Shown in pieces: positions 2,427 to 15,688 of a stretch of DNA of 64,000 nucleotides. Each line of letters starts with the position of its first letter. Position 1 is the stretch's first letter. Position numbers and translations under genes: made by a program. Under the pieces are notes generated by a model. It was not told the origin of the DNA. It saw only the letters and a list, made by a program, of their open reading frames with translations, and searched no databases. Origin of the DNA: Fervidobacterium gondwanense DSM 13020. GTDB lineage: Bacteria; Thermotogota; Thermotogae; Thermotogales; Fervidobacteriaceae. The DNA lies in contig NZ_FRDJ01000005.1 of the NCBI RefSeq assembly GCF_900143265.1, positions 62,001 to 126,000 of the forward strand. The letters run 5' to 3'.

Positions 2427-3715
2427 ACTATTTCACCTTCCAGATCATATGTATCGGCTTCAGTAATCCGGACTTTTACAAAACCTTTAATACCACTGCC
2501 TTTCACAAAGACATTTCCATCAATTTCAGGTGCGTCCATATAACCACGCCCAATCAAAACCCCATTCGCCTCTTCATCAACCAATACATCAATAACACGT
2601 TCGATAAATCTCTGATTTCGCATTGCGGAAATCTCTGCTTGTGTCTCCATCAACCTGTCAAGCCTCTTTTGAGCTGTTGATGACCTTACTTTGTGGGGTA
2701 ATTTGTAAGATGCAGCGTCTTCTTCATCTGAATATATGAACGCTCCGAGTTTGTCGAATTCAACGGCTCTAACAAAATCGAGCAACTCTTCGAAATCTTC
2801 GGAAGTCTCACCAGGAAATCCGAGAATGATAGAAGTCCTCAAAACAGCGTCTGGATACATAGTTCTGATCTTTTCAAAAAGCTTTTCGAGCTCACTCGGT
2901 GTTCTCGTTCTGTTCATCAGTTTCAAAATTTTGGTGCTCCCATGCTGGACTGGAATGTCAAAATATTTTACCACCTTTTCGTACGAGAAACCTTCCAAGA
3001 TTTCATCTGTCACATGATCAGGATGCATGTACATAACTCTAATCCAAAAATCTCCATCAATTTTATTTAACCTTTTCAAGAGTTCTGGTAACATCTGTTT
3101 GCCGTAAATATCTATACCATATCCTGTGGTATCTTGAGCAACCAAAATAACTTCTCTCTTCCCGGATGAAACTAATGTTCTGACCTCATTTTCAATATCT
3201 TCAAGCTTTCTACTTACAAACCCCCCTTTAAATTTCGGTATCGTACAGAAAGTACAAGCTCTGTCGCAACCATCGGCAATTTTCACGTATGCGTATGGTA
3301 AATCATCGTCGACTCTACCTTCGAAATCGTACACGGCAATAGGATCCGTGATATACTTGCTCACCTTTTGAATATTCTCTGCAAGTACTTTCGGTGGTAT
3401 TACACCAAACCAACCATCAACCTCTGGAATTTCATGCGGTAAGTCCTTTGGATAACGCTGCACTAAACAGCCAGTCACAAAAACTTTAAAATCTTTCTTT
3501 ACCTTCTTATGTTCAACAAACTCTAAAATAGTGTCAATTGACTCTTGTTTTGCATCTACAATAAATCCACAAGTATCTACGACAACTCCATCTGCCTCTT
3601 CTAAATCATCAACAATTTCATGACCAAGCTGTTTTATGTGATGCTTAAATAAAGAAAAATCAGCCTCGTTTTTAGGACATCCGAGAACAACAATATACAA
3701 CTTCAAAAACTTCAC
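2423..3715 (-). CDS. rimO: Ribosomal protein S12 methylthiotransferase RimO
   Basis: A 430-residue radical-SAM methylthiotransferase. The UPF0004 domain has its three cluster Cys (C13, C49, C83). The radical SAM loop C150-x3-C-x2-C (CDRACTFC) follows, and there is a C-terminal TRAM-like beta domain. RimO carries two 4Fe-4S clusters and modifies an aspartate of ribosomal protein S12; MiaB is the tRNA paralogue. The CPKNEAD N-terminus and the CDRACTFCTIP loop favour RimO. It overlaps the upstream DUF4416 gene by ATGA (3712-3715) and pgsA downstream by four bases. Confidence 0.93.
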   Translation of the reverse strand: MKFLKLYIVVLGCPKNEADFSLFKHHIKQLGHEIVDDLEEADGVVVDTCGFIVDAKQESIDTILEFVEHKKVKKDFKVFVTGCLVQRYPKDLPHEIPEVDGWFGVIPPKVLAENIQKVSKYITDPIAVYDFEGRVDDDLPYAYVKIADGCDRACTFCTIPKFKGGFVSRKLEDIENEVRTLVSSGKREVILVAQDTTGYGIDIYGKQMLPELLKRLNKIDGDFWIRVMYMHPDHVTDEILEGFSYEKVVKYFDIPVQHGSTKILKLMNRTRTPSELEKLFEKIRTMYPDAVLRTSIILGFPGETSEDFEELLDFVRAVEFDKLGAFIYSDEEDAASYKLPHKVRSSTAQKRLDRLMETQAEISAMRNQRFIERVIDVLVDEEANGVLIGRGYMDAPEIDGNVFVKGSGIKGFVKVRITEADTYDLEGEIV

Positions 3716-9491: not shown

Positions 9492-9520
9492 TTGCGTTTT
9501 TGGGATTTTTTTAGTATAAT
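9492..9520 (+). promoter_or_regulatory. Promoter of the lysC-metF operon
   Basis: TTGCGT (9492-9497), a 17-bp spacer and a perfect TATAAT (9515-9520). The predicted start near 9527 gives a roughly 24-nt untranslated lead before the leader peptide and about 237 nt before lysC. Confidence 0.75.
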
Positions 9521-9550
9521 TCTAAAAAATTTCAAACGGGGGAATTCTTA

Positions 9551-9673
9551 GTGAAGACTGAGCTTTTCGAAACTGTGAAAAGAGGGTCTTTTCTGAGTGA
9601 TATCACACTAAACAATAATGTATTCATGATGGCTATGATGATGTGGCGTACCGACCGTTGGGTATGCCTCTGA
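9551..9673 (+). CDS. Methionine-rich leader peptide (40 codons)
   Basis: A GTG start 8 nt after GGGGG (9538-9542). Codons 26-31 read Met-Met-Ala-Met-Met-Met (9626-9643), five Met codons in six, followed by Trp and the closing codons, with TGA at 9671-9673. The last codons (9650-9661) overlap the 5' arm of the antiterminator hairpin. The peptide is not expected to work as a protein; its translation would sense charged Met-tRNA. Size and layout match leader peptides of amino-acid operons such as thr and ilv. There is no homology evidence; support comes from position, codon content and the RNA arms. Confidence 0.72.
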   Translation: MKTELFETVKRGSFLSDITLNNNVFMMAMMMWRTDRWVCL

Positions 9674-9728
9674 TGTTTTGGAACGTTAAACCAACGGTCG
9701 GGTGAGAAAATCACCCGACCGTTTTTTT
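9651..9728 (+). promoter_or_regulatory. Transcription attenuator (antiterminator / terminator pair) before lysC
   Basis: Arm A 9651-9661 (CCGACCGTTGG) pairs perfectly over 11 bp with arm B 9691-9701 (CCAACGGTCGG). Arm B', 9695-9705 (CGGTCGGGTGA), pairs perfectly over 11 bp with arm C 9711-9721 (TCACCCGACCG), with loop GAAAA and then seven T (9722-9728). A:B and B':C cannot form together. A ribosome stalled early in the Met codons leaves A free, which favours A:B and read-through. A ribosome reaching the stop at 9671 covers A, and the terminator forms. The mechanism is inferred from trp-type attenuators. Confidence 0.82.
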
Positions 9729-9763
9729 ATATATTTATGCAATACGAAAAGGGGGTTAGAAAA

Positions 9764-11146
9764 TTGGAGAAAAGATTTCTCGTATTAAAATTCGGAGGTT
9801 CAAATTTTAAAGATTTTGAATGCTATTCAGAGGTGAAGAGAAAGATAGGTGAGGTAGAAGAAGTTTTTAAAGATAAGCACCTCGTAATTGTCGTTAGTGC
9901 GGCTTTTGGCACTACGGACAAACTTCTCCACGCACTCTACAATTTTCGTGATCAGAAGGTTGATAGCATTATCGACGAGATTTATGAATTCCATTTACAA
10001 GTTTTGAATAATCGTACTGACGGTTATTTCGAGTCTTTATTCGAACGCATTCGTGAATTGTTAACGGTTGTAAGAATTCTCAACAAAGTGCCTCCTTTCT
10101 TGAAGGATGAATTTCTGAGCCATGGTGAACAGATTAATGCCTACACGCTGTTGAAATTTATTGAAGATGAAGATAGTAGATTTGAGTTAAAAGACGCTGG
10201 CGAATGGATAATTACAGATGGAAAATTCGGAAATTCGACAGTTCTTCTTGAGAAGACAAAAGAAAAAATTCAATCAGAAATAAATAGATGGAATGGTGTT
10301 CATTCAATAGTCCCTGGCTTTTACGGCCGTTCCGTGGAGGGTGATGTTACGTTACTTGGACGAGGCGGGAGCGATTACACCGCTACTACTTTAGGTTACT
10401 CTCTTGATGCCGAAGCTGTGTTCTTGTTCAAAGACGTTAATGGGTTTTTGTCATGTGATCCAAAAGTCGCCGAATCACCATACATTGTTAAGTCTATGAG
10501 CTACGATGAAGCTGACGAGCTGTCGTACTTTGGCGCTAAAGTTTTGCAATACAATTCCATAGAGCCATTAAGAAAAAGCTCGATTCCGCTTTATGTCTGT
10601 AGCTTTGATGGTGTTTTTGATTTGAATAGGTGTACGAGAATTTCGGATGATAAACACGTTACCGAAAGTTGTGTTAAGAGTATTTCCTACACAGACGACG
10701 TTGCAGTCGTTCAATTCAAAGGAAGAAACCTTGGACGTGTGCCAGGAGTCTTGGGGGAAATTTCATCTAAAATAGCACACGGAGGGGTGAATATAAAGTT
10801 TGTCATCACGTCTCAAACATCGATTAACTTAATAGTGTCTAAAAGCGCATTAAGCGATGTCTTAAGAATTGCTGAGACAATTCGATTAGACGATATAGAT
10901 GAAATTTCATACAAGATAGATAAAGCTCTCATAGCACTTGTAGGTCATGGGATGCTCGATAAACATGGCATCGCCGCGAAAGTGTTCAGCGTTCTTGCAG
11001 ACAACGGTATTAATGTAGAGATGATCTCGGCAGGTTCAAACGAGGTTTCGTTTTATCTGATAATAGATCGCAAAGATCTTGAAGTATCTTTGCGTGCGAT
11101 TCACAGAAGTCTTTTTGAAAATCGTGTTTTCTCCAATATTGGTTGA
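9764..11146 (+). CDS. lysC: Aspartate kinase
   Basis: 460 residues; phosphorylates aspartate, the first step towards methionine, threonine and lysine. The N-terminus has KFGGSNF; the mid-domain has GRGGSDYTATTLGYSLDAE and KDVNGFLSCDP. Two ACT-type regulatory domains follow (about residues 305-375 and 385-455; GRNLGRVPGVLGEIS, then VGHGMLDKHGIAAKVF). I start at TTG 9764 behind GGGGG; an upstream in-frame ATG at 9737 lacks a site. First structural gene after the Met attenuator, with homocysteine and methyl-supply genes behind it, so it probably serves methionine synthesis here. Confidence 0.94.
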   Translation: MEKRFLVLKFGGSNFKDFECYSEVKRKIGEVEEVFKDKHLVIVVSAAFGTTDKLLHALYNFRDQKVDSIIDEIYEFHLQVLNNRTDGYFESLFERIRELLTVVRILNKVPPFLKDEFLSHGEQINAYTLLKFIEDEDSRFELKDAGEWIITDGKFGNSTVLLEKTKEKIQSEINRWNGVHSIVPGFYGRSVEGDVTLLGRGGSDYTATTLGYSLDAEAVFLFKDVNGFLSCDPKVAESPYIVKSMSYDEADELSYFGAKVLQYNSIEPLRKSSIPLYVCSFDGVFDLNRCTRISDDKHVTESCVKSISYTDDVAVVQFKGRNLGRVPGVLGEISSKIAHGGVNIKFVITSQTSINLIVSKSALSDVLRIAETIRLDDIDEISYKIDKALIALVGHGMLDKHGIAAKVFSVLADNGINVEMISAGSNEVSFYLIIDRKDLEVSLRAIHRSLFENRVFSNIG

Positions 11147-11176: not shown

Positions 11177-12568
11177 ATGAACAGAACAATTGAGGAAATA
11201 AACAAAAAGATATTGGAAGGGAACGCTGTTGTCCTAACTGCAGAGGAAGTGGTGAAACTCGCGAAAGAGGAAGGAGTTAAAGAAATTGCAAGAAAGGTTG
11301 ATGTGGTTACGACAGGGACGTTTGCACCGATGTGTTCAAGCGGCGCTTTTATAAATTTCGGTCACACCTTTCCACCCATGCGGATGGAAAAAATAACACT
11401 CGGTGGTGTGGAGGTGTACGGTGGGATAGCGGCAGTTGATGGGTATATTGGTGCAACGCAAGAGTCTGCATACGACAAAACATTCGGCGGTGGACATGTC
11501 ATCGAGTTGTTGATACGAGGGGAAAAGGTGCTCCTTGAAGCTTTTGGAAAGGGAACGGATTGTTATCCTCGGAAGCATTTTAAAGGATACGTCGATAAAC
11601 ATTCGATTAATGACTTTTTCTTGTTCAATCCGAGGAATGCTTATCAGAACTACGCTGCTGCAACAAACGGCTCAGATAAAGTGATTTATACTTACATGGG
11701 GAAACTGCTTCCAAACTATGGTAACATAACATACTCGACTTCCGGGGAACTCAGTCCATTGCTCAAAGACCCGAAGCTCCTGACGATAGGCATCGGTACG
11801 AAAATCTTCCTTGGGGGTGGAGTAGGTTACGTGAGTTGGTACGGAACGCAATTCAGGAATACAATCAAGGAAAATGAGAACGGTATCCCCATCTCACCTG
11901 CTCGAACTCTTGCACTCATAGGCGATGCGAAGAAGATGAGTGCGAAATATATCAAGGGAGCATATTTCAAGAACTACGGTACCACGCTTTTTGTTGGAGT
12001 TGGAATTCCAATCCCAATTCTCAGTGAAGAGATAGCCTACTATGTGAGCCTTTCAGATGAACAGATACACACCGAGATAAAAGACTATTCCGTGCCGGAA
12101 AGACCGACACTCGGTGTTGTTTCATATGCGCAATTGAAATCTGGAGAAGTGGAGCTACTTGGAAAAGAGGTCAAAACATCTTCTCTTTCGAGCTTGAAAG
12201 TTGCAAGAGAGATTGCGGAAGAATTGAAAACGTGGATGCTGAATGGCGAGTTCTTGCTCACAAATCCTGCTTATAATTTGCATGAAGAAAGAAGCTTGAA
12301 GAATCTTTACAATGCAAAAGAACTTGACTTAGAGATGGAAGAGAATTATCTTGAGCTCAGAGCAACTTTGGAAAGAGATAAATCTTGTGTGCACTGCGGC
12401 GCTTGTGTCTCTGTATGTCAGTATTCCGCTTTTCAATTTTCTAATGGAAATGTGTTTCTTGCTAAAGATAAATGCACGGAATGTTTAGTTTGTGCAGACG
12501 TGTGCCCTGTTGGATTAAGACTTCCGTATGACAAGGCTGGAAAAGAGACCTTTGATATGCCATATTAG
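11177..12568 (+). CDS. hcyB: Homocysteine biosynthesis protein (COG1900/DUF39) fused to a ferredoxin domain
   Basis: 463 residues. Residues 1-365 are DUF39/COG1900, with the conserved Cys in APMCSSGAFINFGH and the glycine-rich IGIGTKIFLGGGVGYVSW. Residues about 395-450 hold a two-cluster ferredoxin motif, CVHCGACVSVC then CTECLVCADVCP. In methanogens this family, with COG2122 proteins, converts aspartate semialdehyde and a sulfur donor to homocysteine; that role is transferred by homology. Placed between lysC and a COG2122 gene, it fits a direct sulfide route to homocysteine. GGGGGAAAAGCTTT precedes the ATG. Confidence 0.88.
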   Translation: MNRTIEEINKKILEGNAVVLTAEEVVKLAKEEGVKEIARKVDVVTTGTFAPMCSSGAFINFGHTFPPMRMEKITLGGVEVYGGIAAVDGYIGATQESAYDKTFGGGHVIELLIRGEKVLLEAFGKGTDCYPRKHFKGYVDKHSINDFFLFNPRNAYQNYAAATNGSDKVIYTYMGKLLPNYGNITYSTSGELSPLLKDPKLLTIGIGTKIFLGGGVGYVSWYGTQFRNTIKENENGIPISPARTLALIGDAKKMSAKYIKGAYFKNYGTTLFVGVGIPIPILSEEIAYYVSLSDEQIHTEIKDYSVPERPTLGVVSYAQLKSGEVELLGKEVKTSSLSSLKVAREIAEELKTWMLNGEFLLTNPAYNLHEERSLKNLYNAKELDLEMEENYLELRATLERDKSCVHCGACVSVCQYSAFQFSNGNVFLAKDKCTECLVCADVCPVGLRLPYDKAGKETFDMPY

Positions 12569-12614
12569 CTGAACTACGTATTGCTGAATTGATTGGTTGC
12601 GGGTGGTGAGACTT

Positions 12615-13370
12615 TTGGAAAGTGGTAAAAAAATCCCAGTTACGAAGAGATTCTACAGAGATTTTTATTCAGATAGGTTAGAAATGTTCTATGTTAAATA
12701 CAAATTCACCGACTTATGTATCAGGGTTGATAAATTTGAGAAGAGTATGCTTGGAACAGTATACGATTTGGTGAAGACAAATTATGAAGCCTTGGAATCG
12801 TATATAAATATTCACAAAGAATTTTATGCTTCCTTGGTACCTGTTGAATGTTTGGAAAGAGTGCCAGATATTGTGTTAATGATGGATAATGCTTCGAAAT
12901 TAGCCGATGTTGGTCCCATGGCAAGTGTTGCCGGTGCGTTTGCGGATATAGTTGGGAATCACTTGGTCGAAAATTATAGATGTGAGGAGGTTGTGGTAGA
13001 GAACGGCGGAGATATATACATCAGGTCTAAAAAACCTGTCAAAATCGGGATATTTGCGAATTTCAATAGCGAATTTAACAAACTTTTGATAGTTTTGCCA
13101 TCTGGAAGTTGGGGTGTGTGCACTTCTTCGGGAAAGATTGGACATTCCAGAAGTTTCGGCAGTACCGATGCGACGTGCGTTATCGCAAAGACTTCGGTAA
13201 TCGCAGATGCATTTGCAACAAGATATGGGAACATCGTGCACAGTTCACTCGATTTTGAAAAATTGGAGATGATGGTAAAAGAGGATATTGAAAAGGAGAA
13301 TATTTTAGGAGCGATTTCAATAGTTAACTCAAAATTGTTTGCTATTGGGAATATACAATTTTCCGTATAA
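12615..13370 (+). CDS. UPF0280/COG2122 protein, homocysteine biosynthesis partner
   Basis: About 251 residues, ApbE-like. Family signatures: ADVGPMASVAGAFAD, VVENGGDIYIRS, WGVCTSSGKIGHS with RSFGSTDA, and VIADAFATRYGN. COG2122 proteins were linked with COG1900 to homocysteine synthesis in anaerobes; the catalytic step is not established. Start is uncertain: TTG 12615 has GGTGGTGA upstream, but TTG 12597, GTG 12603 and GTG 12606 are also in frame. It lies 46 nt behind hcyB and 34 nt before metF in the same apparent operon. Confidence 0.85.
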   Translation: MESGKKIPVTKRFYRDFYSDRLEMFYVKYKFTDLCIRVDKFEKSMLGTVYDLVKTNYEALESYINIHKEFYASLVPVECLERVPDIVLMMDNASKLADVGPMASVAGAFADIVGNHLVENYRCEEVVVENGGDIYIRSKKPVKIGIFANFNSEFNKLLIVLPSGSWGVCTSSGKIGHSRSFGSTDATCVIAKTSVIADAFATRYGNIVHSSLDFEKLEMMVKEDIEKENILGAISIVNSKLFAIGNIQFSV

Positions 13371-13404: not shown

Positions 13405-14340
13405 GTGAAGATTCCAGAAAAACTCAAAGAAGGCAAAGTAATATCTATTGAAATAGTTCCACCAAAAAGAGGAGAAGATGTTGAGAATATATACAGAGCA
13501 CTCGATAAACTGATGAAATATAACATTTCATTTGTAAATATTACTCGCCATCCTGTTGAGATAGAGTATATAGAGCACGACAATCAAATAATCAAAGTGC
13601 CGAAAGTGAAGAGACCAGGAACGATAGGTCTTACAGCAGCGATTATGAAACGATACGACGTGGACGTGGTCCCACACATAGTCTGCATAGGTATGAACAA
13701 ATACGAAATAGAGGACCTGTTGATTGACCTTTCGATAATGGGTGTGGATAATGTATTTGTAATCAGAGGCGATGTTGACGAGCGATTTATAAATACGAAA
13801 TCTGATTATAAATATGCCTACCAACTTGTTAGTCAGATTAACGAAATGAATAGCGGAAGGTACCTATATACGCAGGCGAAACCTACAGACTTTTGCATTG
13901 GAGTTGCAGGATATCCTGAAAAACACTATGAAGCTCCAAACTTTGAAACCGATTTGAGGTTTTTGAAGCAGAAAGTGGGAAATGGGGCAGATTTTGTAAT
14001 AACTCAGATGGTCTTCAGTGCGGAAGTTTACAAAAGTTTTGTAGAACGTTGCAGGAGTGAAGGTATAAATGTTCCAATCATACCCGGTGTTAAACCATTG
14101 GTCAACAAGAAATCTCTATACATGGTACCTAAGAGATTTTTCGTCAGTATTCCGCAAAGCTTTGTCGAGGCTTTAGAAAACGCAAGAAGTAAAGAGGAAG
14201 AATATAACGTAGGAATCAAATTTTCTTTGAAGTTAATTGAAGCTTTGTTTGAAAGTGGGGCTCCGGGAGTTCACTTGTTTACAATGGGGCGTGGAGATGA
14301 AATATGCGAGATAATGAAAGAAATTGAGAATGTGTTGTAG
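13405..14340 (+). CDS. metF: Methylenetetrahydrofolate reductase
   Basis: 311 residues, a TIM-barrel MetF. It reduces 5,10-methylene-THF to 5-methyl-THF, the methyl donor for methionine. Motifs: SIEIVPPKRG at the start, VPHIVCIGMN, NVFVIRGD, FCIGVAGYPEKH, and GADFVITQMVF near residue 195. The GTG start has GAGGAGG 7 nt upstream. It is the last gene of the lysC operon by layout, because a promoter for the next gene follows. Length is usual for bacterial MetF. Confidence 0.94.
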   Translation: MKIPEKLKEGKVISIEIVPPKRGEDVENIYRALDKLMKYNISFVNITRHPVEIEYIEHDNQIIKVPKVKRPGTIGLTAAIMKRYDVDVVPHIVCIGMNKYEIEDLLIDLSIMGVDNVFVIRGDVDERFINTKSDYKYAYQLVSQINEMNSGRYLYTQAKPTDFCIGVAGYPEKHYEAPNFETDLRFLKQKVGNGADFVITQMVFSAEVYKSFVERCRSEGINVPIIPGVKPLVNKKSLYMVPKRFFVSIPQSFVEALENARSKEEEYNVGIKFSLKLIEALFESGAPGVHLFTMGRGDEICEIMKEIENVL

Positions 14341-14473: not shown

Positions 14474-15688
14474 ATGAGAAATGATCTTCGGGAAATAGTA
14501 CGAACAATACTCTTCGACAACGTAAAGCTGTCATATGGATGCACTGAACCTGTTGCTGTTGGGCTTTCGGTTGCTGTTGGTAAGAAGTACCTTAAAGGAG
14601 ATGTTCAGAAGATAGAGGTTTTAATGGATAGAAACACATACAAAAATGGTTTGGAAGTGGGAATCCCTGGAACACATCTTCACGGTTTTGAATTAGCAGT
14701 TGCGTTGGCTTACATTGTGGGAAAGGCAGAGCTCGGTTTGGAAGTTTTCAAATATGTGGATTCTGATGCTGTTATGAAAGCTTACGAATTGAAAGATAAG
14801 ATTGTAGTCAAATACACAAACGATATGTACTTGCACATAAGAACACGGCTTTTGGGAGAAAACGATGTACTTGTGGAGATTACAGACTCACACGATAACG
14901 TAAGCAGGATAGTTGTGGATGGCAAAGAAGTGATTAACAACCAATCGAGTGCGAATTTTAAGAAAGACATTATTAAATCAATAAATCTTTCAGATATATT
15001 CGAATATGTTGAGGCTCCAGACAACGATGTTATTAAAATGGTTTCAGATGCTATACAATACAATCAGAATATTTCAAAGATAGGTTTAGAAGAAGAAATT
15101 ACGTTTGGAAAGGTGCTCGAAGGAATGCCAAGATACGTCGCGTCTGGTGTTGATATGCGGATGAACGGTGCACTTCTTCCTGTGATGACCGTCGCAGGAA
15201 GCGGAAATCAGGGGATTTCTTGTACAGTTCCAGTTGCTCTTTATGCTGATGAACTCGGAGTTTTGAGTGATATTAAATTAAGGGCTGTACTACTGAGCAT
15301 GTTGGTAACAATTTATATAAAGGCTTACACCGGGGCTCTGACGCCGATTTGCGGAGCAGGTTCTATAGCCTCAGCAGGTGCATCGGCGGGGATTACGTAT
15401 CTTCAAAATGGCTCACACGAACAAATAAAGAACGCAATCAACAATGTCCTCGCAACGTTATTTGGAATGACTTGTGATGGAGCAAAAAGAAGCTGCGCTT
15501 TGAAAGCGAGCATCGGCACTCAGATGGCACTCAACGCAGCAAAACTATCCATGAACGATATGAACGTTCCGTGTGGAAATGGATTTGCTGCAAAGGATGT
15601 TGAAGAAACGATTAGAAGAATTGAAATTCTCACGAATTCTCTCAGAAATTTTGATGAAAATGTCATTGACTTTATTGGTCACTGTTAA
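14474..15688 (+). CDS. L-cysteine desulfidase (UPF0597/CyuA-CdsB family)
   Basis: 404 residues, homologous to the iron-sulfur serine dehydratase alpha chain. The family breaks L-cysteine into sulfide, ammonia and pyruvate using a 4Fe-4S cluster. YGCTEPVAVG near residue 18 and the later CGAGSIASAGASAG and GMTCDGAKRSCALK carry the candidate cluster cysteines. SGNQGISCTVPV lies at the centre. GGGGGAGTCGCG precedes the ATG. Beside a sulfide-using homocysteine pathway it could supply sulfide, but L-serine dehydration cannot be excluded from sequence alone. Confidence 0.85.
   Translation: MRNDLREIVRTILFDNVKLSYGCTEPVAVGLSVAVGKKYLKGDVQKIEVLMDRNTYKNGLEVGIPGTHLHGFELAVALAYIVGKAELGLEVFKYVDSDAVMKAYELKDKIVVKYTNDMYLHIRTRLLGENDVLVEITDSHDNVSRIVVDGKEVINNQSSANFKKDIIKSINLSDIFEYVEAPDNDVIKMVSDAIQYNQNISKIGLEEEITFGKVLEGMPRYVASGVDMRMNGALLPVMTVAGSGNQGISCTVPVALYADELGVLSDIKLRAVLLSMLVTIYIKAYTGALTPICGAGSIASAGASAGITYLQNGSHEQIKNAINNVLATLFGMTCDGAKRSCALKASIGTQMALNAAKLSMNDMNVPCGNGFAAKDVEETIRRIEILTNSLRNFDENVIDFIGHC

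Follow-up and report, generated by a model that had tools for sequence, protein, structure and literature searches.

Here, we describe a leader region of Fervidobacterium gondwanense DSM 13020 that is very likely a ribosome-mediated transcription attenuator sensing charged Met-tRNA and controlling a homocysteine/methionine operon; no transcript, ribosome-profiling or mutant data are available for it. Many amino acids are known to be sensed by leader-peptide attenuation, and bacterial methionine control has been described via SAM riboswitches, T-boxes and repressors. The leader lies in a stretch of DNA of 64,000 nucleotides (hereafter the window; contig NZ_FRDJ01000005.1, positions 62,001 to 126,000), and all coordinates are counted from its first letter. 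A sequence-only reading of the window had proposed attenuation of the trp/thr type with methionine as the sensed amino acid, which is supported by the comparative analysis presented here, with induction upon methionine shortage remaining an inference. If true, this reading would add the amino acid with which every protein starts to those sensed in this way, would make the sensing of starvation for an initiating amino acid a directly testable question of design, and would establish leader-peptide attenuation as widely distributed, and probably old, in a phylum of thermophiles. A natural series at one operon would come with it, comprising a SAM-I riboswitch alone, SAM-I together with a Met leader, and a Met leader alone.

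Anatomy of the leader and its operon

The leader region starts with a promoter at 9492-9520 (+ strand), consisting of a -35 element TTGCGT (9492-9497), a 17-nt spacer and a perfect -10 element TATAAT (9515-9520), assigned by consensus only and not measured. The -35 element shares only 3 of its 6 bases with the consensus and is thus weak, which is why a promoter scan missed it; at the matching position the relatives have TTGAAA-17-TATAAT, with the -10 element kept. A Shine-Dalgarno-like GGGGGAA (9538-9544, +) precedes a leader peptide reading frame of 40 codons (9551-9673, +), running from a GTG start at 9551 to a TGA stop (9671), and a purine-rich site 5' of a possible start is also present in the leaders of the relatives. 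The frame translates as MKTELFETVKRGSFLSDITLNNNVFMMAMMMWRTDRWVCL up to the stop, and its C-terminal end, MMAMMMWRTDRWVCL, includes the proposed sensing codons, a cluster ATG ATG GCT ATG ATG ATG (9626-9643, +) with five Met in six codons.

Immediately behind the cluster lies the P1 hairpin (9645-9668, +), in which GGCGTACC (9645-9652) pairs with GGTATGCC (9661-9668) over 8 pairs, and whose loop and 5' arm contain arm A (9651-9661, +), the 5' arm of the antiterminator, situated inside the last leader codons. Arm B (9691-9701, +) is the partner either of A, in an antiterminator of 11 bp, or, from 9693 onwards, of arm C, in an intrinsic terminator (9693-9728, +) with a stem of 13 bp (9693-9705 with 9711-9723), a T7 tract at 9722-9728 and a stability of -24.1 kcal/mol. 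As positions 9693-9701 are common to both, antiterminator and terminator are mutually exclusive, and with P1 present the arrangement is that of a complete trp-type leader. Folding of the leader gives -70.4 kcal/mol vs -47.7 +/- 3.9 in shuffles (z = -5.8), and the thermodynamic optimum of the full window leader is the terminator.

The sequence-only reading had named the promoter, the ribosome site with the 40-codon Met-Met-Ala-Met-Met-Met frame, the 11-bp A:B stem, the placement of arm A in the last leader codons right after the Met run, and the position before lysC, all of which held on the sequence, with the reservation that the -35 element is weak. Its overlapping terminator stem, claimed as 11 bp followed by seven T, was found as 13 bp with T7, and its list of hairpins was incomplete, as P1 had been missed.

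The operon starts with an aspartate kinase with ACT domains (9764-11146, +; TIGR00657 above cut-off, PF00696 and ACT). Its reading frame is also open from ATG 9737, and given a GGGGG ribosome site at 9751 the probable start is TTG 9764 rather than ATG 9737. The next gene encodes a homocysteine-forming enzyme (HcyBio/DUF39) that carries a fused ferredoxin domain (11177-12568, +; PF01837, E = 5.6e-146), followed by a PRK04334-like protein (12597-13370, +; NF003323, E = 8.1e-58, under the curated cut-off), which we take to be COG2122/UPF0280. COG2122 is required for homocysteine in Desulfovibrio, and the genetics of DUF39 and COG2122 tie both to homocysteine synthesis (PMC5764234). Further downstream are methylenetetrahydrofolate reductase (metF; 13405-14340, +; PF02219, TIGR00676) and a serine dehydratase alpha/UPF0597-like protein (14474-15688, +; PF03313), the latter possibly a cysteine desulfidase supplying sulfide, a function that is inferred. 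We regard this five-gene set as a homocysteine/methionine operon and as the methionine operon of the organism. Neither MetE nor MetQ was found in the window's family, and MetH and MetK, located elsewhere in the window's genome, have no Met leader at either gene.

Conservation in near relatives and recurrence across the phylum

A sequence-motif search of 103 Thermotogota genomes recovered the motif in eight, all within two genera of the window's family. The leader frame is open in 8/8, with stops in both other frames, and the Met cluster and the position of the stop are kept. The N-terminal part of the peptide drifts and is not conserved among the eight, and the peptide end reads MM[AP]MMM[WR][RC]TDR... 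in 8/8, with the stop 42-48 nt past the first Met codon and length differences after that codon in multiples of three. The Met cluster is identical in six genomes and carries GCT>CCT in two.

The A:B pairing is likewise conserved by compensation. Across the eight genomes 96.6% of cells are paired, and four pairs show changes on both sides, giving 12 double-change cells vs 4.5 in shuffles and a covariation score of 0.338 vs 0.148 +/- 0.034; none of 500 shuffles matches A:B on covariation or percentage paired, and the covariation is lost when the partner strand is slid. The terminator stem does not include two of the four double-change pairs (columns 35-73 and 36-72) and so does not explain them; selection has therefore acted on A:B itself. 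P1 covaries as well, from GGCGTACC/GGTATGCC to GGTGTACC/GGTACACC, with 8/8 pairs in 8/8 genomes, counted by script on unaligned sequences because frame-preserving indels made MAFFT misalign the 3' arm. An alignment of relatives had been the check proposed by the sequence-only reading, and it favours that reading, with Met codons and frame kept and compensatory changes between A and B at four pairs. Loss of the Met run or the frame with retention of the stems would have refuted it and is not seen in any of the eight near relatives.

Several side observations concern these and neighbouring genomes. One locus, L002, carries the leader of genome G009. In G002 (L049, L058), an insertion-sequence-like element of ~1.4 kb separates the Met-leader terminator from the aspartate kinase, and the operon behind this element may or may not still be controlled by the attenuator. 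A genome of the same genus (G005, L120) has a divergent aspartate kinase (42%) with an f2-like gene nearby and is without the leader; the divergent kinase and the f2-like gene suggest that its operon may have been replaced through transfer. In profile searches, four genomes of one genus of the window's family f1 (G015-G018) gave no DUF39, MetE or MetH; they might be methionine auxotrophs.

Beyond the near relatives, the element extends across much of the phylum, which goes further than what the sequence-only reading had claimed. DUF39 is present in 35 of the 103 Thermotogota genomes, and a Met-cluster leader with a switch stands upstream of the DUF39 operon in 24 of these 35, in seven families (family names of the compared genomes were inferred). 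The 16 leaders additional to the eight come from six other families and, within the window's family, from two additional genera, and all contain a Met cluster, arm A, P1-like folding, arms B and C and a T-tract in the same arrangement, with the frame open and always before the same operon. Stem sequences are unrelated between families (CCGACCG, GGCCAGTG, CACCTGG, GCCCC, AACCGATT), and the first operon gene varies among the 24 between aspartate kinase, DUF39 itself and a MetH-associated gene. In each leader the Met codons are immediately 5' of the antiterminator arm, most loosely in G065, as exemplified by the peptide ends ..NMMIMRGMWLHWPQPFVMEI (G014), ..NVNMMIMCGEFDNWPQLLLCY (G019), ..EKNVMAMIMCIYAPGGSPGF (G085), ..YMMMRHTPPKLGGRV (G025), ..DMMMRWKAPGSCPPVCRL (G034), ..NMNMWMCGITDFYAHVFCYIN (G072) and ..CMMNTMMMRMMGRRRPFERRC (G100). 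Some leaders have only two Met codons (M-I-M), which counts against the attenuator reading.

In several families (L105, L107, L114, L115, L118, L125-L128) ATA (Ile) often takes the place of one ATG within the cluster, giving M-I-M. Decoding of ATA requires a lysidine tRNA, and it is possible that this codon itself slows the ribosome.

As a further point against the reading, the element is absent from 11 of the 35 DUF39 genomes, namely G005, G024, G088, G076-G081, G074 and G075, the last being not judgeable due to a contig end. The six leaderless genomes G076-G081 are of Thermotogaceae type and belong to family f2 (L106-L119), in which the DUF39 operon starts with the MetH-associated gene and MetH. 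Within this family one genus (G082-G085) keeps a Met-Ile-Met leader and the others (G076-G081) have none, and the leader has therefore been lost or gained within the family.

The specificity of the element was assessed with a detector that reports short reading frames standing before a terminator and containing three or more Met within 8 codons. Run on both strands of the window and of 45 DUF39 loci (1.04 Mb), it gave three matches, the window leader, L002 and one spurious site. The last, in a DUF39 locus of another phylum (L032), has no A/C repeat and was rejected. Under a relaxed Met rule combined with an A/C repeat of 7 nt or more, no site was found in 895 kb of other DUF39 loci, and within the window the leader's terminator is the only one with an A/C repeat before a gene. 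The detector gave no Met leader at the MetK, MetH and MetRS loci of the window's family. A search of the same genome for further copies of ATGATGNNNATGATGATG, allowing 2 mismatches, returned only this exact site and 14 mismatched matches without a leader. The amino-acid control was too loose to inform, as A+T-rich DNA also yields matches to runs of Lys, Ile, Leu and Asn, some of them within the same leaders.

With regard to known RNA families, the window had no Rfam match of any family, including the amino-acid leader families at gathering score, and L130/L131 had no match to the amino-acid leader families. SAM-I (RF00162) was found neither in the window nor in 20 genomes of its family (strict filters), and all-Rfam scans gave no T-box (RF00230) in the window or the upstream loci searched. 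SAM-I does occur before this same operon in three genomes, all of family f10 (G074, G072, G065), so that in this one family the Met leader stands behind SAM-I or is replaced by it, a situation not foreseen in the sequence-only reading. In G072 (L104, oriented 3220-3540) and G065 (L123, 3182-3502), SAM-I with its own terminator is followed by the Met-leader attenuator with a second terminator, and these tandem regulators, which may form a two-input gate for SAM and Met-tRNA, stand before aspartate kinase. At the same operon of G074 (L109, 618-790), SAM-I is alone, without a Met leader. With SAM-I alone in G074, both elements in G072 and G065, and the Met leader alone elsewhere, modules have been added or exchanged at one operon. 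The presence of SAM-I before the same operon in relatives also marks the operon as a methionine/SAM-regulated target and thereby supports methionine as the signal.

Computed folding, proposed mechanism and rival explanations

Folding was computed at 37 C and 65 C for the RNA left free 3' of a ribosome whose A-site was placed at each of the Met codons in turn, or at the stop. For transcripts ending before arm C, A:B is computed to form in 24/24 leaders when the ribosome occupies the Met codons of the cluster. Placing it at the stop lowers A:B, at 37 C, to at most 1 expected pair in 17/24 leaders and at most 6.2 in the remaining ones, the highest values being those of G003 and G008, where about half of A:B remains; folding at 65 C gave the same pattern. 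A:B is stronger than with a shuffled A in 24/24 leaders (p 0.002-0.044). The model thus predicts that the position of the ribosome, on the sensing codons vs at the stop, selects the fold, only partially so at the stop in G003 and G008. In the absence of a ribosome A:B beats P1 at equilibrium in most leaders, with G019 and G072 as exceptions, and in full-length transcripts the terminator is usually more stable than A:B. As the terminator is mostly favoured once C has been made, the choice between A:B and B:C must be kinetic, as in known attenuators.

In the proposed mechanism, translation of the frame, stalling at the Met codons and induction of the operon upon methionine shortage are inferred. 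The ribosome would follow RNA polymerase as the leader is transcribed. With plentiful Met-tRNA it would reach the stop at 9671 and cover arm A, leaving B free to pair with C, and transcription would end at 9722-9728. With Met-tRNA in short supply it would halt within 9626-9643, upstream of A, and A would pair with B before C is made, such that no terminator forms and the operon is read. P1 would serve as the trp-like 1:2 hairpin, able to hold A if no ribosome is near. Since methionine starvation also starves the initiator tRNA, a Met leader is awkward in principle; equilibrium folding leads us to infer a default-ON design, which would be useful as methionine shortage also hampers initiation. 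A bolder reading, towards which we lean by a narrow margin and only as one joint claim, is that the Met attenuator was present in an early ancestor of the Thermotogota and travelled with the DUF39 operon whichever gene came first, that in one family it is in series with SAM-I as a two-input gate reading SAM and Met-tRNA charging, and that it is default-ON because methionine shortage also blocks initiation, its only OFF state being a ribosome that has reached the stop codon.

Among the rival explanations, a metabolite-binding riboswitch formed by P1, A and B, such as a novel aptamer for SAM or methionine, with an accidental reading frame, could draw on the near invariance of ATGATG..GACCG within the two nearest genera, on the possibility in principle of an H-type pseudoknot between the P1 loop and B, as in SAM-II, and on the regulation of the same operon by SAM-I elsewhere. 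However, the stems share no sequence across families, whereas the Met codons, open frame and pairing logic persist, and a pseudoknot holding B would block termination and therefore have the wrong sign for SAM repression. In the absence of any Rfam match in the window and of an RNA sequence common to the families, we rejected this reading as very unlikely. Also very unlikely is arrest by the nascent peptide, in which the peptide itself rather than the supply of Met-tRNA would stall the ribosome on a ligand such as SAM. The conservation of MM[AP]MMM[WR][RC]TDR in two genera speaks for it, but arm A and P1 determine which residues follow the Met codons, and these residues are wholly different between families (WRTDRPVCP, CGMWKNWPP, RWKAPGSCPP, CIYAPGG), and only Met recurs.

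A third rival takes the Met run as a coincidence and the structure as nothing more than an intrinsic terminator acting constitutively, or as the tail of a small gene without relation to the operon. It would fit both the frequency of terminators near gene starts and the terminator being the thermodynamic optimum of the full leader. Against this stand the combination of Met cluster and A:B in 24 leaders of seven families, the lack of such a site in the 895 kb of other DUF39 loci and at the MetK, MetH and MetRS loci, and A:B covariation independent of the terminator; these comparative data effectively refute the explanation, and we consider it all but excluded. A Met-tRNA-sensing attenuator hence remains our preferred reading.

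Relation to known systems

An Rfam-based survey reported only His, Trp, Thr and Leu leaders (PMC3766115), and Naville and Gautheret (2010) noted leader peptides only from Proteobacteria and Actinobacteria, adding a histidine one in Firmicutes (PMC2965389). No methionine leader in Thermotogota was found in the literature searched, which is consistent with the sequence-only reading, to which no Met leader peptide of this kind was known in the phylum. The broad attenuation survey of Lopatovskaya et al. 2010 (doi 10.1134/S0026893310010164) was outside this literature, and an earlier in-silico prediction is therefore not excluded.

The only prior Met leader peptide in the literature searched is metL of Streptomyces lividans, which was proposed to precede metNIQ (PMC8079986), in our view a weak proposal. 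It resembles the leaders described here in being a short peptide with several Met before methionine genes, but differs in its sequence (MSTTSDRTPATEATTTPGARCMCRRMCAF), in being leaderless with two scattered internal Met and no recognised intrinsic terminator, and in concerning a transporter operon of one species without a comparative test in the relevant passages (PMC8079986). Unlike the Met leader, SAM-I (S box, RF00162) binds SAM directly and needs no translation. The Met T-box senses the charging of Met-tRNA by an RNA switch before a terminator, like the Met leader, but reads the uncharged tRNA directly.

The closest likeness is to the trp, his, thr, leu, ilv and phe attenuators of the E. 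coli type, in which the leader peptide is likewise enriched in the amino acid that the operon makes, and which share hairpins 1:2, 2:3 and 3:4, an intrinsic terminator and the coupling of translation to transcription, the last of which is here only proposed. In contrast to these, the present leaders belong to Thermotogota, would sense methionine and precede a homocysteine operon of the homoserine-independent DUF39 type; in the window, the leader has no Rfam match and its last codons contain the antiterminator arm, and the Thermotogota leaders are mostly antiterminated at equilibrium in the absence of a ribosome. As far as the literature searched shows, the amino acid specificity and the phylum are new, and the mechanism itself is classical.
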